IMG/VR virus record: IMGVR_UViG_3300025000_000234
Location: 1 to 38,772 of that record
Reading direction: 5' to 3' (one strand)
Origin: a virus
DNA length: 38,772 nucleotides
Made by a program: the position numbers and the translations under genes. The notes under the pieces are model-generated. The model ran no database searches. It worked only from the letters and a program-made list of their open reading frames with translations, and was not told the origin of the DNA. Shown in pieces: positions 10,462 to 15,169 of the stretch; position 1 is the first letter of the stretch; every line of letters starts with the position of its first letter.

Positions 10462-10809
10462 TCAGTAGATGGCGTCGGGGTCGGGCTCTTCTTCAGCCCA
10501 GGCCGCGTCTCTCGCGATGATCGCTACGGCATCCGCAGGGATGTCGGCGTCGGTCGGAGCGTATGTCGAGGTTTCGAGCTGGACTCCGACTCGCCGGGCA
10601 TGCTGGTCGAGGAAGCGGTGCATGAGCCATGCGCTCAGCAGGTCGAGTGGGACATCGCCACCGGGCGCCATTCCGACGTCGACCGGAGAGCCGAGCTCCA
10701 CGCCCGCCCTGACCCGCTCAGCGAGAGGAGTCCGGCCGGTCACGAGGACGGAACCCTTGTCCGTCCAGCGCACCGTCGTGCCGTCCTCGAACTCCCACTT
10801 GTGGATCAC
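10462..10809 (-). CDS. Hypothetical head-module protein
   Basis: The start is GTG 10809, which overlaps the stop of the MuF-like gene as GTGA, the same coupling used elsewhere in this region; it gives 115 residues starting (V)IHKWEFEDGTTVRWTDKG. The N-terminal 35 residues look like a small beta-hairpin module (strand, DGTTVRW, VLVTGRTPLAERV). The C-terminal part is acidic (AEEEPDPDAIY). No family is recognised. It is the last gene before the terminator at 10412-10438. Confidence 0.65.
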   Translation of the reverse strand: MIHKWEFEDGTTVRWTDKGSVLVTGRTPLAERVRAGVELGSPVDVGMAPGGDVPLDLLSAWLMHRFLDQHARRVGVQLETSTYAPTDADIPADAVAIIARDAAWAEEEPDPDAIY

Positions 10810-13310
10810 GCGTAGCCTCCAAGACAACCGAGCACCCACCAGAAGTGCTCGCTGTCTTCACGGTAAGTCCAGAACGGGTCGGTCGCCACTTTTTCTGCTC
10901 CCATCGAGAGCAGTTCGGTCGCGTCGGCCTGGTAGATCTTCCCGCAGTAGGCGGAGAAGAACTTGTCGGGCTTGGCAACTTCGCTCCACCCGTACGGGAT
11001 CCCCGTGAGCGCGCTCAGCGGCTTGGCAACCTCGCCGGCGGTCCGCTTTCCGAGGAATGCAACTGCGGCCTTATGCACCGAAGCGTTGAGCGTCTCGATG
11101 GCGTGCCCCCATTCGTGAATCAGGGACCGCAGGTCGTTGGCGTTGACCCGAGGCGGGGACATCCGGATATCGCAGTAGGCCCGTCCGTTGACGAACCGGA
11201 TCTGGGCCCGGCCGTCGAGCTTCTTGCTCATCATCGCGTCGTAGAACGCCTTGGCTCGATCGAGTCCAGGCATCTTGCGGGGCCGATTCGTGACCTTGGC
11301 TGTGCCCTTTGCTGAGTCGATGTTCGCGATGTGCCCAAGGATCGATGCGACTGCGTTGCCATCGTCGCCCTTGAGAAGCTCGCGCACGGACTTGTCCGGG
11401 TGGGTCTTGGCCGCTTCGACTACCGCTCTGACGCGATCGACGAGAGCCCCGGTCATCGGGCCGTCGTACTTGTCGAGGGCGTGCTTCTTGGCGATTGCCC
11501 CGACTTGCTTCGCGGTCATGTCGAGGCCCCGTTCCTGGGCCGCTCTCCCCCACGCCATCGCACGCGCAGCGTCGCCGTACTTCGAGAATTCCTTCTCCCA
11601 GTGCTCGACGGTGTGCTCAGGCTTCGGCCCCGCGCCCGACTTGGGCTTCGGCCTGGCTTCCGCCTTCTCGGGCTTCGGTGTCCGCTGAACCGGGCGCTTG
11701 TCGAGTCGCTTGAGCCTCGCCTCCAGCTCCTTGCGAATTTCCGGCGGATACTTCTTCGTGTCCGGCTTCCACTCTGCAGCATCCGGAGTCAGACCGAACC
11801 CATCTTGCGACGGTTCCGTCGAGGGAGTCTTGGTGATGCCCTTGCGCTCGGCCTGTGACTTGCGGATCGAGCGAACTACACTGCGGCACCCAAAATGCCG
11901 AGGGGGGTAGTTCGTCTGCCACCAAGGGTGTTCGGCCGGAAGGATCGTTCCGTCGGCCTGCTCGCACATCAGCGTCACGCGATTGTCGAGGATCGCGTCG
12001 AATTGCCAGAAGGGCCGGACCTTCAGGAGCGCTGGCTCCGTCATCTGCTGGTGCCGACCTGCGTTGTACGCGAGTTGCACGTTCGTCCGGTAGATGGTAT
12101 TACCTGTGTACAGACCGTTGATGGTGAAGTAGCCGTGCGCGGTAGAGAGGTTGAACACATGTCCGCGAAATGGAACGAAGCGACGCGAGGCAACGTGATC
12201 GAACTCTATATTTCTGGCCTCAGCATCAAGCGCGTTGCATTGGAGGTTGGCGCCTCCACTGGATGGGTAGCCTCCGTGATCTCCTCCGAGGGGCTCACAC
12301 GATCGCTGCGCGATGCCAGAAGACTGCACTTCGCGCGAGGTGGCAGGCCCTCGCGAGAACGAACCGACCTGCCTAGAGAACAGATCGTTCAGCGATACGT
12401 CTCCGGCGAAAGCGCCAACAGTCTTTGCGGCGCGTTCGGTGTTCACCAGGATACCATCCGGCGCATCGTTGTGTCTACGGGACTCCACTGGCGCAGCGTC
12501 GCAGAAGCCGCAACGCTTCGTGACCACGATCAGATGGCCGCACGCGGCGCAGAATCTAGGAGTCGTAAGGTTGGCCGGTTCGAAGACGTGATCGCTGATT
12601 GGATCTCGCAGCGCGGCGAATTGCCCGAAGCTCAGGTTCCTTGCAGGACGCGCAACATCGACATCGCAATTCCCCCCGTCGCCGTGGAAGTCGTCACTGC
12701 GTCCGTGAATCCGTTCAACGTTGCCTACCTGCGCAATCGCACCGAAGATCTGCGAGATGGTGGATGGTGGTGCTGTTACGTGATTATCTCCCAGCGTACC
12801 AAGGTGCTGTTGCCCACGGTAGCCGATCAGATCGTCGCCCTCGCGAAGTTGGCCCGCGGCAACCCATCCACGGCGCGTGAGCATTGGGTGATTCGGGGTT
12901 GCGGAGAACTTGCGGCCCGACGCGGTGACGACCTCGACAAGGGCCCCCTCGAACCACCGTCGATGAGCTGCCCTTATCACCCCTCCGCTCACAAGGGTGT
13001 CCCCGGGTAGGCACTCCACCCGCCACGCCGGATTCACGACGCTCCCAGCCCAGGCATCGAGGAGCTGCTGACCCACACGTTTCTTGAAGTCGTCCAGCGT
13101 CTCGCCGTTGGCAACGGCCCGGTCGAGAGCGAGCAGGACATCTCGAATCACGTCGGCTTGGGCCACGCCGGCCACGGTGAACGCCTTGCGCTGAGCCCGT
13201 TCGTCGAGCAGGTCCCAAACCTTCTTTCGGACCGGAGTTCGACCGAGCAGCCAAGACGCCGCGGGAGTGAACTCCTCGACGTCGGTGGGTGCGGCCCAGG
13301 GTGCGTTCAC
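10806..13310 (-). CDS. MuF-like minor head protein with intein and C-terminal metallopeptidase-like domain
   Basis: Started at GTG 13310, which overlaps the portal stop (GTGA); 834 residues. The extein is a MuF-family head morphogenesis protein: after splicing, residues NPAWRVE join TIYRTNVQLAYNAGRH, the conserved RTN core, followed by FWQFDAILDNRVTLMCEQADG and HPWWQTNYPPRHFGCRS. Residues 100-404 are an intein inserted exactly at the RTN core. The C-terminal region (about 640-834) contains LIHEWGHAIE (HEWGH at 732-736, a zincin HExxH motif) and later ADATELLSMGAEK, where the Glu may be a third metal ligand. The protein acts in head assembly and may be ejected or process other proteins. Splicing would leave a 529-residue product. 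Confidence 0.9.
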   Translation of the reverse strand: MNAPWAAPTDVEEFTPAASWLLGRTPVRKKVWDLLDERAQRKAFTVAGVAQADVIRDVLLALDRAVANGETLDDFKKRVGQQLLDAWAGSVVNPAWRVECLPGDTLVSGGVIRAAHRRWFEGALVEVVTASGRKFSATPNHPMLTRRGWVAAGQLREGDDLIGYRGQQHLGTLGDNHVTAPPSTISQIFGAIAQVGNVERIHGRSDDFHGDGGNCDVDVARPARNLSFGQFAALRDPISDHVFEPANLTTPRFCAACGHLIVVTKRCGFCDAAPVESRRHNDAPDGILVNTERAAKTVGAFAGDVSLNDLFSRQVGSFSRGPATSREVQSSGIAQRSCEPLGGDHGGYPSSGGANLQCNALDAEARNIEFDHVASRRFVPFRGHVFNLSTAHGYFTINGLYTGNTIYRTNVQLAYNAGRHQQMTEPALLKVRPFWQFDAILDNRVTLMCEQADGTILPAEHPWWQTNYPPRHFGCRSVVRSIRKSQAERKGITKTPSTEPSQDGFGLTPDAAEWKPDTKKYPPEIRKELEARLKRLDKRPVQRTPKPEKAEARPKPKSGAGPKPEHTVEHWEKEFSKYGDAARAMAWGRAAQERGLDMTAKQVGAIAKKHALDKYDGPMTGALVDRVRAVVEAAKTHPDKSVRELLKGDDGNAVASILGHIANIDSAKGTAKVTNRPRKMPGLDRAKAFYDAMMSKKLDGRAQIRFVNGRAYCDIRMSPPRVNANDLRSLIHEWGHAIETLNASVHKAAVAFLGKRTAGEVAKPLSALTGIPYGWSEVAKPDKFFSAYCGKIYQADATELLSMGAEKVATDPFWTYREDSEHFWWVLGCLGGYA
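12099..13013 (-). mobile_element. Intein in the MuF-like protein (305 residues)
   Basis: The Hint splicing blocks are visible: block A CLPGDTLVSGG starting with Cys1 (codon 13013-13011); block B KFSATPNHPML (T-x-x-H); block F/G RGHVFNLSTAHGYFTINGLYT ending in Asn (codon 12101-12099), with Thr as the +1 extein residue. The insertion lies between Glu and Thr of the conserved RxE-T-x-YRTN extein motif. The penultimate residue is Gly, not the usual His, so splicing may be slow or may use another route. The centre (about residues 90-265) has a CAAC...CGFC pair resembling a zinc knuckle. Almost the whole intein is antisense to the endonuclease gene at 12159-13010. Confidence 0.85.
12159..13010 (+). 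CDS. Putative homing endonuclease encoded antisense to the MuF intein
   Basis: A 283-residue protein on the strand opposite the intein. ATG 12159 is preceded by AGAGG nine bases upstream. Residues 8-46 (IELYISGLSIKRVALEVG, then VISSEGLTR) and 70-112 (LPREQIVQRYVSGESANSLC, then HQDTIRRIVVSTGLHW) are two helix-turn-helix units. Residues 140-212 resemble a Vsr/EDxHD-type nuclease core: NIDIAIPPVAVEVVTAS with Asp168 and Glu177, then LRNRTEDLRDGGWWCCYVII. The stop codon is directly adjacent to the intein Cys1 codon. Codons are in exact register with the intein codons, a phase in which GC-rich DNA often gives chance open frames, so reality rests on the nuclease motifs and the ribosome site. Confidence 0.6.
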   Translation: MSAKWNEATRGNVIELYISGLSIKRVALEVGASTGWVASVISSEGLTRSLRDARRLHFARGGRPSRERTDLPREQIVQRYVSGESANSLCGAFGVHQDTIRRIVVSTGLHWRSVAEAATLRDHDQMAARGAESRSRKVGRFEDVIADWISQRGELPEAQVPCRTRNIDIAIPPVAVEVVTASVNPFNVAYLRNRTEDLRDGGWWCCYVIISQRTKVLLPTVADQIVALAKLARGNPSTAREHWVIRGCGELAARRGDDLDKGPLEPPSMSCPYHPSAHKGVPG

Positions 13311-15169
13311 AGGTCCTCGACGACAGCGACGCGTCCCGCGAGCTCCGCCAAGATGGTCGCCTTGTGGGCGAGTTGCTCGAATGCGGCGTTGTCCTTGACC
13401 TGCCCATAGTGCTCGGCGAGCTGCGTCCGAAGACGCTCCGGCCAATCGTCCCCGTCCTCGAGGTCGTCGATGAGCTCGAGCAGCTTCGCCACGTCGGGCT
13501 CGATGGCGCGGGCGGTCACCTGGGCAGCGTCGGTTGCGATGTCGTCAACGAACTGCTGGCCGTTGATGACGCCGGACGCCTTGGCTGGGTCGTCGCCAGA
13601 GGCGAGGGTGATAGAGCGCGCCGACAGCTTCGCCTCAATGATGGGTCCGACGATGCGTGGCACTTCGGCTTGCAGCACCTGGTGGAGCCTTCGCTCAGTT
13701 TCCGCCATAGCGTCAGCGACAACCGCGTCCCAGACGGGACGCCGACGGCTCGCCTTGACGTCTTCCGCATCGTCCTGTGGCTCTGCGTCGTCCCCTTCGT
13801 TCGACGCATCCTCGTCACCTCCGAACTGCGGCGGAACCGGCGCTGGCTCCGACTCCTCCCACTCTGCCCCTTCCTCAAGAGGCATCCCGAACGTCCGTGC
13901 GTACTCGTTCTTGTCCACCGGAGCGCCCAACCCGAGCCACTTCTTCAGCGCGTCAGCGGCCTTGTCCCACGTGGTGGCGAGTGCTGCAGTGTCCGCCGGC
14001 GGTGTCGTGTCGCGCTTCGGCCAAGGGGCCTTGCGTCCATCGCCGAAGTTGAACGCCGCCCACCACCAGATGAGCTGCGACCGAATCGTCGTGGCGCTGG
14101 TCTCGTCGTCGGCGCGGATGATGGCCGCCGCCACCGCCGAGTGCACCTGCGCAGCGGCGTAGCTCCCGCCCTGAACCTCGGTGGAGAGGTTCTGTCCGAG
14201 GATGCGAATCGCGATGGCCGCGTTGGCCATGTTGATCTGCGCCTGGAACGTCTCCCAGGTGTCGGCGACAGCTTCGACGAGCTTCAGATCGTAGCCTGGC
14301 GGCGTAACGATCGTTGTGTCCCGCCCGAGGTCGGAGATGTCGCTCGCGAGCTCGTCGCGGTGCTCCCTGGTCGACCCCTCGTCGGTCGGGAATCCGACGA
14401 GCGTGCCCTGCCCGTGGCGCTCCGAATAGCGCCCCCAGTCGTCCCGGCCGTACTCCTTCAGGAGCCACCAGCGCGATACTGACCGCCACGCTCCTCGCGC
14501 CCACGGACGCTTGCTGCCGTACGGCGTGTACAGCAGCCACGTTCCGTCACCGGGGGTGACCTCGAGCTCGGAGCCGTCCTTCTGCCGAGCGAACCACTTG
14601 CGCTTGTCCTGGTCGTACCGAAGCGACGATGGGTGGATGACGTCGAAGCCGGGAGTCCCGTCCTCCCGGTGGGGGATGAGTCGGATTCCGCTCGGCTGCT
14701 CGACGCGCTCCCACGACGCAATCCGACCGACGCCCACACCGAGGATGATGCCCCACTCCATCCACTCGGAGAGGACGTCCTCGGGGACCATGTCCCACCA
14801 GTCCTCCTCGAGCTCCTCGAGCGGGGCGTTGGTATCCTGCTTCGGCGGCTGGAACTCGAGAGGCAGCCCCAGCAAGCCCCGGACGCGCACCTCGCGCAGA
14901 CACCCGCTCACTCGGTCGTCGGCGAGAATCTCATCGCACAGCAGAGCGGCAAGCCGGAGGTTGCCGGTGTCCGCCATCGCCTCCGCACGCTTGATGAGCG
15001 TGGGCGACCACTCGATTGACGACGAACGGACGGACGACTCGATGAACGGCGCAGGTTTCGGGATGCGCGGCACAACAGTCGCAGCGAGCGACACGGCACT
15101 GGCGATAGCGAGCACACGCCTCCCCACTTGCGTGAGAGTCGTCGATGCTCTGGTTCGCCAGTGGGTCAT
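13307..15169 (-). CDS. Portal protein (DUF935, Mu gp29-like)
   Basis: A 620-residue protein that forms the dodecameric portal vertex. DUF935-type segments are visible: RLAALLCDEILADDRVSGCLREVRVRGLL near residue 70-105, the WEWGIILGVGVG region (EWMEWGIILGVG), HREDGTPGFDVIHPSSLRYD, GRYSERHGQGTLVGF, PPGYDLKLVEAVADT and LGQNLSTEVQGGSYAAAQVH. The last is the gp29-type signature QNLTTE-x-x-GGS-x-AA. The C-terminus is acidic and helical, with a charged linker near residue 450. The order terminase, portal, MuF, protease, capsid is Mu-like. Its stop overlaps the MuF start by GTGA. (Segments quoted are discontinuous.). Confidence 0.92.
   Translation of the reverse strand: MTHWRTRASTTLTQVGRRVLAIASAVSLAATVVPRIPKPAPFIESSVRSSSIEWSPTLIKRAEAMADTGNLRLAALLCDEILADDRVSGCLREVRVRGLLGLPLEFQPPKQDTNAPLEELEEDWWDMVPEDVLSEWMEWGIILGVGVGRIASWERVEQPSGIRLIPHREDGTPGFDVIHPSSLRYDQDKRKWFARQKDGSELEVTPGDGTWLLYTPYGSKRPWARGAWRSVSRWWLLKEYGRDDWGRYSERHGQGTLVGFPTDEGSTREHRDELASDISDLGRDTTIVTPPGYDLKLVEAVADTWETFQAQINMANAAIAIRILGQNLSTEVQGGSYAAAQVHSAVAAAIIRADDETSATTIRSQLIWWWAAFNFGDGRKAPWPKRDTTPPADTAALATTWDKAADALKKWLGLGAPVDKNEYARTFGMPLEEGAEWEESEPAPVPPQFGGDEDASNEGDDAEPQDDAEDVKASRRRPVWDAVVADAMAETERRLHQVLQAEVPRIVGPIIEAKLSARSITLASGDDPAKASGVINGQQFVDDIATDAAQVTARAIEPDVAKLLELIDDLEDGDDWPERLRTQLAEHYGQVKDNAAFEQLAHKATILAELAGRVAVVEDL

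Follow-up and report, generated by a model that had tools for sequence, protein, structure and literature searches.

An intein in a phage head gene with a putative homing endonuclease gene overlapping it codon for codon on the opposite strand

The viral record IMGVR_UViG_3300025000_000234 from IMG/VR (positions 1 to 38,772; this whole stretch of 38,772 nucleotides is called the window) codes for a MuF-like head protein that is interrupted by an intein. The strand opposite to this intein carries a long open reading frame (ORF) in exact codon register with it. We consider it very probable that this is a mobile intein whose homing endonuclease is encoded by a gene of its own, which runs antisense to the splicing protein in codon register. 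The argument is built on the two open frames, on homology and predicted fold of both proteins, on selection in both frames, on a conserved start codon and ribosome site, and on an exact empty site. The open antisense frame of the window by itself proves nothing, and the case rests on the relatives.

The two reading frames and their products

A first-pass annotation of the window had described a 305-residue intein in the MuF-like gene and, antisense to it, a gene of 283 codons with its own ribosome site, two helix-turn-helix (HTH) units and a Vsr/EDxHD-like nuclease core, ending next to the Cys1 codon of the intein. The layout was confirmed in all of these points. The features are as follows (HEN, putative homing endonuclease gene).

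10806-13445, minus strand: ORF of the MuF-like head gene, interrupted in frame by the intein
13014-13310, minus strand: N-extein of the MuF-like protein (start codon not fixed; the ORF is open to 13445)
12099-13013, minus strand: intein of the MuF-like gene, 305 amino acids (Cys1, block B, block F, Asn305, followed by Thr+1)
10806-12098, minus strand: C-extein of the MuF-like protein
13011-13013, minus strand: Cys1 codon of the intein, adjoining the HEN stop codon TAG (13008-13010)
12888-12899, minus strand: intein block B T-P-N-H (residues 39-42), antisense to V244-I-R-G247 of the HEN product
12681-12689, minus strand: intein F109-H-G111 of the DFHGDG motif, antisense to A175-V-E177 of the HEN product
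12159-12566, minus strand: stretch of the intein facing the HTH half of the HEN, open, mostly a predicted disordered linker, protein not conserved
12159-13010, plus strand: HEN, 283 codons and TAG, codon-aligned with the intein frame
12145-12150, plus strand: Shine-Dalgarno-like GAGAGG of the HEN, opposite intein block F and in the same place in relatives
12159-12161, plus strand: start codon ATG of the HEN, antisense of block F His285 (CAT)
12174-12281, plus strand: HTH unit 1 of the HEN product, residues 6-41 (Pfam HTH_23, PF13384)
12375-12470, plus strand: HTH unit 2 of the HEN product, residues 73-104 (Pfam HTH_28, PF13518)
12567-12926, plus strand: predicted Vsr/I-Bth0305I-like nuclease domain of the HEN product, residues 137-256 (E142, D168, E177, R194)

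The MuF-like gene and its intein form a single continuous ORF, and the host gene is not split into two ORFs. The HEN is in register 0 to the intein frame, and the overlap covers 93% of the intein. Its stop codon is antisense to Leu2 of the intein, and its start codon follows GAGAGG with a spacing of 8 nt. An alternative in-frame start further upstream, at 11895, is possible on paper. The pairings of T-P-N-H with V-I-R-G and of the nuclease motif with the FHG stretch, both pointed out earlier, were found at the residues listed.

The intein has the expected motifs: C1, T39-P-N-H42, G284-H285-V-F-N-L289 (block F) and N305, which is followed by Thr+1. All 60 aligned inteins have the block B histidine (His42). 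Cys1 and the terminal Asn are also invariant in this set, in part by construction, because these residues were used to place the intein ends (which could be mapped in 73 of the 79 distinct loci described below). When the exteins of the window are joined without the intein, a single Phage_Mu_F match results, which covers profile positions 3-111 of 112 (E 4.4e-20); with the intein left in, the match is limited to 37-111. Among 63 MuF-intein ORFs, Phage_Mu_F matches 46 and a phage portal model matches 6. The intein model PF14890 scores 21.9 bits in the window, under its curated cut-off of 35.8, and matches 56 of the 63 MuF ORFs at E <= 0.001. The window intein also matches PI-MtuI by sequence (1.7e-4), and a Foldseek search with its AlphaFold2 (AF2) model leads to inteins (7qsu at 7.4e-4, the RecA mini-intein at 1.3e-3). 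In this model, the Hint ends have a predicted local distance difference test score (pLDDT) of about 95, residues ~81-120 are fairly confident, and residues 131-260 are at about 37-47. The middle of the intein, opposite the HTH half of the HEN, is thus mostly predicted to be a disordered, stop-free linker. The end of the linker region (intein residues about 268-285) is part of the C-terminal splicing half. As a side observation, a CxxC...CxxC zinc-finger-like stretch that weakly resembles C1_1 is found at intein residues 142-172 (about 12498-12590, minus strand); with the HEN on the other strand, this may be a mirror effect.

For the antisense protein, both HTH units exceed the curated Pfam cut-offs. 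Its AF2 model has a mean pLDDT of 85.4, with 233 of 283 residues at pLDDT >= 70. Upon structure comparison with VIA-align, this model matches Vsr (1cw0) with Z 10.3 (110 residues aligned, 2.9 A), I-Bth0305I (3r3p) with Z 8.7 (92 aligned, 3.3 A) and 3hrl with Z 8.7 (87 aligned, 1.9 A). Foldseek alone returned nothing at E <= 0.001 for this model, with 3r3p ranked second at 0.14. In the relatives, the nuclease relationship is visible at the sequence level: PF18741 (MTES_1575) matches 39 of 61 HEN proteins and DUF559 matches 12 of 61 (E <= 0.01), and the HEN family profile finds I-Bth0305I (3r3p) at 1.2e-6 and 3hrl at 9.5e-8. E142 and D168 are present in 61 of 61 HEN proteins, and E177 in 60 of 61; judged from the fold, these three acidic residues would be catalytic. 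Asp168 and Glu177 are where the first-pass annotation had placed them, and the family profile and fold comparisons agree with the nuclease core proposed there. We therefore predict that the antisense protein of the window consists of two HTH units and a Vsr/I-Bth0305I-like nuclease that looks EDxHD-like.

Recurrence, start signal and selection in relatives

At the 64% G+C of the window, a codon-aligned antisense frame of this length would be open by chance with P = 0.06 if the HEN protein is held fixed and 0.09 if the intein protein is, and the ORF list of the window has further long antisense ORFs. A chance ORF is nonetheless rejected, and the evidence for this comes from the relatives, not from the window. 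Homologs of the plus-strand protein are abundant. With tblastn, 41 phage records were found using the window HEN as query; a Cronobacter relative gave 121. One scan of IMG/VR with two patterns gave 279 relatives, and a two-pattern scan of genome contigs gave one. When the HEN region of Cronobacter phage ES2 was compared by blastn to the E. coli genome collection, nothing matched. The paired frames recur in phages of Gordonia, Vibrio, Salmonella, Escherichia, Klebsiella, Helicobacter and other hosts.

In the first 15 loci (the window and 14 others, from a search that took open frames only), both frames are open in the same register in 15 of 15. In a chance test with 32 loci, none has a stop codon in the intein frame opposite the HEN (this set is without L032, which has an arrangement like the free-standing L042 described below, and L039, which is marked UNVERIFIED and has frameshifts; L024 and L025 are identical in sequence in it). 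For the phages of Helicobacter and Idiomarina, two Vibrio phages and Aaphi23, an open intein frame would have a chance of 3e-6 to 4e-9 given the HEN, and an open HEN frame one of 2e-9 to 9e-12 given the intein. The values are weaker for Salmonella and Escherichia phages (2e-3 to 2e-5 for the intein frame, 3e-4 to 1e-7 for the HEN frame).

A larger set of 109 loci (the best 80 of 279, 25 of 25 and 1 of 1 relatives, and three phage loci, with some contigs shared with L022-L027) was collapsed to 79 distinct HEN sequences. Both frames are open in 75 of the 79, with stop codons counted in the tblastn match span, which is not always the whole HEN. The antisense partners, for which recurrence in other phages had been a proposed check, are thus found together as a rule. 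The N-intein profile matches 77 and the C-intein profile 76 of the 79; the endonuclease is on the strand opposite the intein in 77, and the other two are free-standing. All 70 HEN ORFs that could be read from start codon to stop codon have a stop-free intein frame. Base composition does not account for this: the 19 intein-carrying loci with less than 50% G+C have 2 stops in 4,600 HEN codons vs 225 expected, an expectation taken from the codon-aligned antisense of the exteins (321 stops in 6,570 codons). Among the distinct loci with less than 50% G+C, 18 of 21 are open; the other three are the two free-standing HENs and one decayed HEN.

A further sample was selected by the intein (80 loci, corresponding to 67 distinct DNA sequences and 66 proteins; it overlaps the contigs of the 79 loci, and the patterns used favour DFHGDG inteins). 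The HEN profile matches the opposite strand in 67 of 67 DNA sequences. In several cases, the matched span covered one profile domain, and a recount over the full span was made: 63 of the 66 distinct proteins are stop-free, and the other three are each interrupted once, close to the C-terminus, by a stop at antisense position 242. Two of these three are the contigs of L125 and L110, whose HEN ORF ends at 219 amino acids. Profile matches opposite inteins are not proof, because such a profile can match whatever lies antisense to a conserved protein family. Independent lines are the matches to the HTH, MTES_1575 and I-Bth0305I models, the free-standing homologs, the codon positions and the permutations.

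The start signal is conserved as well. A start codon is found at most four codons before the block F Val in 70 of 79 distinct loci (61 ATG, 5 TTG, 4 GTG). It directly precedes this Val in 59 of the 70; the other 11 may include chance cases, because four positions were allowed. The start codon and Shine-Dalgarno sequence of the HEN usually face intein block F (HVYNL). The block F His is encoded by CAT in 50 of 54 loci vs 24.3 expected from the codon use of each extein, and the block F Leu is encoded by CTC in 58 of 74 loci vs 16.8 expected, a codon that on the HEN strand reads GAG within the ribosome site; these expectations and the binomial values ignore shared ancestry. In five loci, Gln replaces the block F His in the intein, and the HEN start is retained as TTG.

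Both frames carry marks of selection. In the extein upstream of the intein, codon variation is highest at position 3 (0.58 in an enterobacterial set, 0.54 in a Salmonella set). In the N-terminal part of the intein, positions 1 and 3 are similar and lower (0.12/0.11 and 0.20/0.24, respectively). From there to the HEN start, a middle region that takes the nuclease core and the HTH half together, intein position 1, which is HEN position 3, is the most variable (0.29 vs 0.12 and 0.27 vs 0.11 at position 3). Past the HEN start, variation at position 3 climbs again (0.34 and 0.38). A set of three Gordonia phages has the same trend, based on few differences.

Synonymous codons were permuted in 16 divergent pairs, aligned by the fixed frame, which is the conservative version of the test. 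The HEN is conserved beyond the constraint from the intein in 16 of 16 pairs (<=2 of 400 permutations as good), and the intein is conserved beyond the constraint from the HEN in 15 of 16 (<=1 of 400 as good). The pairs are not independent, and in close ones (KlebRCIP-EdwMSW3), shared ancestry alone lifts both scores. By region, in nine pairs aligned by the HEN frame, which flatters the HEN, the nuclease core (HEN residues 137-216) has z scores of 16.3 for the HEN and 7.3 for the intein, the last helix 3.8 and 4.6, and the tail opposite intein residues 1-49 8.4 and 14.6. Taken together, the codon positions and permutations show purifying selection along the length of the HEN frame. The part that is conserved as protein in both frames is intein residues 1 to about 147, roughly one half of the overlap.

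Natural controls and rival explanations

Nature provides controls for both frames. In Acinetobacter phage BUCT629 (L042, 3806-4696) and a closely related IMG/VR contig (L058, 2384-3391), the nuclease is free-standing beside a MuF gene that has no intein. The antisense frame of these nucleases contains 12 and 9 stops, respectively; a HEN therefore does not by itself keep its antisense frame open. In the HEN tree, the free-standing L042 is placed on a long branch inside an intein-embedded group (support 93/80, within a group with 99/90), which suggests that a HEN escaped from an intein.

An exact empty site is seen when Escherichia phage Snoke is compared to fEg-Eco19, which lacks the intein. 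The MuF exteins are 93.6% identical at the DNA level, the genes differ by exactly 272 codons, and the junction residues are the same. In a megablast search with Snoke, 26 of the 60 matches listed (the best 60 of 230 records) consist of two pieces with a 50-57% match; fEg-Eco19 is the sole one of these checked to the residue level, and the exact empty site thus holds for Snoke. In Salmonella phages like vB_SenS_AG11 (H365-H375), similarity to the Snoke MuF gene ends at base 725-731, which is about the start of the intein; these phages may have a different insert or a divergent C-terminus after that point.

Several insertion sites are occupied. The C-extein begins with C-x-C in 69 of the 73 mapped inteins (CRC in 42 and the KC-type CKC in 17). 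The window has a different site (VE|C...N|TIYRTN), and the intein of Escherichia phage BEU35 is at a third place. A GCRS motif in the window (11880-11891, minus strand) resembles the usual C-x-C site of the relatives; it is empty here, the intein being further upstream in the gene.

A number of results weigh against a separate, active homing gene on the opposite strand. In Pfam, PHROGs and PDB sequences, the window HEN alone matches HTH models and no nuclease family, and its assignment as a nuclease rests on the family profile and the model. The domain arrangement in this model is unsure, because the predicted template modelling score (pTM) is 0.52. A histidine in the pattern E-[VIL]-x(1-3)-G-x(2-3)-H after Glu177 is present in 29 of 61 HEN proteins and absent from that of the window. 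Nine of the 79 distinct loci, including the two free-standing ones, have no start codon at block F or no block F match, and scans of one stretch each upstream of the HEN of Snoke and of the window gave no sigma-70-like promoter. In L068 (401-934) and L106 (2501-3163), the HEN has internal stops and the intein frame is intact. These are probably decayed endonucleases, a fate to be expected when a homing gene lies in an element whose splicing has to be retained. An intein with a stop-filled and unselected antisense frame, the finding named beforehand as damaging, was not seen: these two are the loci among the 79 with stops in the HEN only, and the HEN frame is under purifying selection.

With regard to selection, the intein conservation given the HEN is weak in the Vivi2-Malisha pair (23 of 400 permutations as good). 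In the HTH half, the nine pairs have z 18.4 for the HEN and 0.8 for the intein, which is no conservation of the intein frame. When eight pairs were split in two, in the same HEN-frame alignment, the regional picture was the same, except that KlebRCIP-EdwMSW3 has intein conservation in the HTH half. In that half, the main requirement on the intein frame is the absence of stops. The predicted structures of intein and HEN agree with this regional split. The earlier statement that nearly all of the splicing protein is dual-coding is thus literally correct with respect to the overlap, and has to be restricted for the part opposite the HTH units, which in the intein frame is an unconserved linker.

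Three other explanations were considered. The antisense ORF might be a by-product of G+C-rich, codon-aligned sense coding and not a gene at all. The window frame, not significant on its own and accompanied by other long antisense ORFs, would fit. The frame is, however, open in the loci of low G+C, it is under selection of its own, its start codon and ribosome site are retained against codon bias, homologs occur outside of any intein, its relatives match MTES_1575 and I-Bth0305I, and the window protein matches HTH models, none of which is an intein antisense as far as known. A by-product is therefore extremely improbable. The reverse, that only the HEN is functional, the MuF/intein frame being passively open without any protein splicing, agrees with the intein frame opposite the HTH half, which lacks conservation of its own and is mostly predicted to be disordered. 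This is nevertheless very unlikely in view of the invariant block B His, the continuous Phage_Mu_F match that is restored by intein removal, the exact presence or absence of 272 amino acids, the conservation of the intein beyond the HEN opposite the nuclease domain and tail, and the intein frames kept open in L068 and L106.

A third possibility concerns the activity of the antisense protein, which could be a nuclease-derived DNA-binding regulator or otherwise domesticated rather than an active homing enzyme. Its two HTH units and the missing His of the G-x-x-H pattern, in the window and in about half of the relatives, would be in line with this. The near-complete retention of E142, D168 and E177 speaks for an enzyme. 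So does the distribution of the element: near relatives have or lack it at one and the same site, and it occupies several sites, as for a homing element. We regard a regulator as improbable, albeit the least improbable of the three. The reading that we prefer is still that of a mobile intein with its homing endonuclease gene on the opposite strand.

Proposed mechanism, known systems and significance

Under this preferred reading, the minus-strand precursor would splice the intein out of the MuF head protein. The plus-strand gene, having its own ribosome site and a start codon opposite block F, would be transcribed and translated into a Vsr/EDxHD-like nuclease with two HTH units. The nuclease would recognise MuF DNA lacking the intein through these HTH units and would probably cut such alleles, upon which repair would copy the whole element. 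The nuclease domain faces the N-terminal splicing half, and loss of the nuclease by deletion would therefore abolish splicing of the head protein as well. Expression from the opposite strand would uncouple the nuclease from when, and in what amount, the head protein is made. We consider it rather probable that these elements are an undescribed and widespread class of phage inteins, in which a Hint domain and a Vsr-like nuclease are dual-coded on opposite strands in codon register as a natural sense-antisense pair, and in which the overlap protects the nuclease from deletion and permits its expression independent of the late head genes.

Canonical large inteins such as PI-SceI and PI-MtuI are similar in that they have a Hint domain, an endonuclease coded between the splicing halves, and conserved motifs of the host protein as target. 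In these, however, splicing domain and endonuclease are read in one frame as a single polypeptide. Here, the endonuclease is encoded separately, on the other strand, in DNA that also includes the N-terminal splicing half, and the middle of the intein itself is mostly a predicted unstructured linker. In the "fractured genes" that Dassa and colleagues reportedly described in 2009, the inteins are said to be split, with the host gene in two ORFs and a free-standing Vsr-like endonuclease gene between them. That system shares the phage setting, the intein and a Vsr-related homing endonuclease with a gene of its own. It differs in that host gene and intein are one continuous ORF in the window, the endonuclease being antisense on the same DNA.

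I-Bth0305I, an EDxHD endonuclease from a phage intron (3r3p), resembles the antisense protein in its catalytic fold and is found by the family profile, as described above. It is carried by an intron, and the window HEN is without the His of G-x-x-H. The gene for I-Bth0305I is not known to be antisense to a protein-coding frame. DNA-binding regions outside of the nuclease are described for this enzyme in PMC3943268. Homing endonuclease genes that are antisense in group I introns of nuclear rDNA are described in PMC9548176; they too are on the strand opposite their host gene. Their host element is an RNA intron, so that they overlap a ribozyme and not a second protein frame. Full-text searches of an open PubMed Central library (without preprint servers and with few subscription papers) listed no paper that, by its title or the opening of its abstract, reports such a gene on the strand opposite an intein.

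Whether long antisense overlaps of protein genes are real in bacteria and phages is contested, since a single case can be due to chance. The overlap analyzed here is seen repeatedly, in diverse phages that differ widely in base composition, with selection at the codon level in both frames, and natural controls are available in the form of a free-standing nuclease, decayed nucleases and an exact site without intein. It offers a test system for the way in which one DNA can code for two unrelated protein folds (Hint and Vsr-like). For the biology of inteins, this means that a nuclease can do without the intein frame, that its deletion as a block should break splicing, and that it could have its own expression schedule. 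The arrangement is testable at once, because it is found in phages of easily grown hosts (Kagunavirus, Gordonia phages).

The annotations inspected in these phages mostly name a head protein or a hypothetical protein only. Salmonella phage records such as H145 and H150 give the matched feature the name "NAD+--asparagine ADP-ribosyltransferase". Finally, the C-terminal part of the MuF-like protein of the window contains HEWGH (11103-11117, minus strand), a metal-binding motif of the HExxH type, which points to a possible metallopeptidase fused to the head protein.

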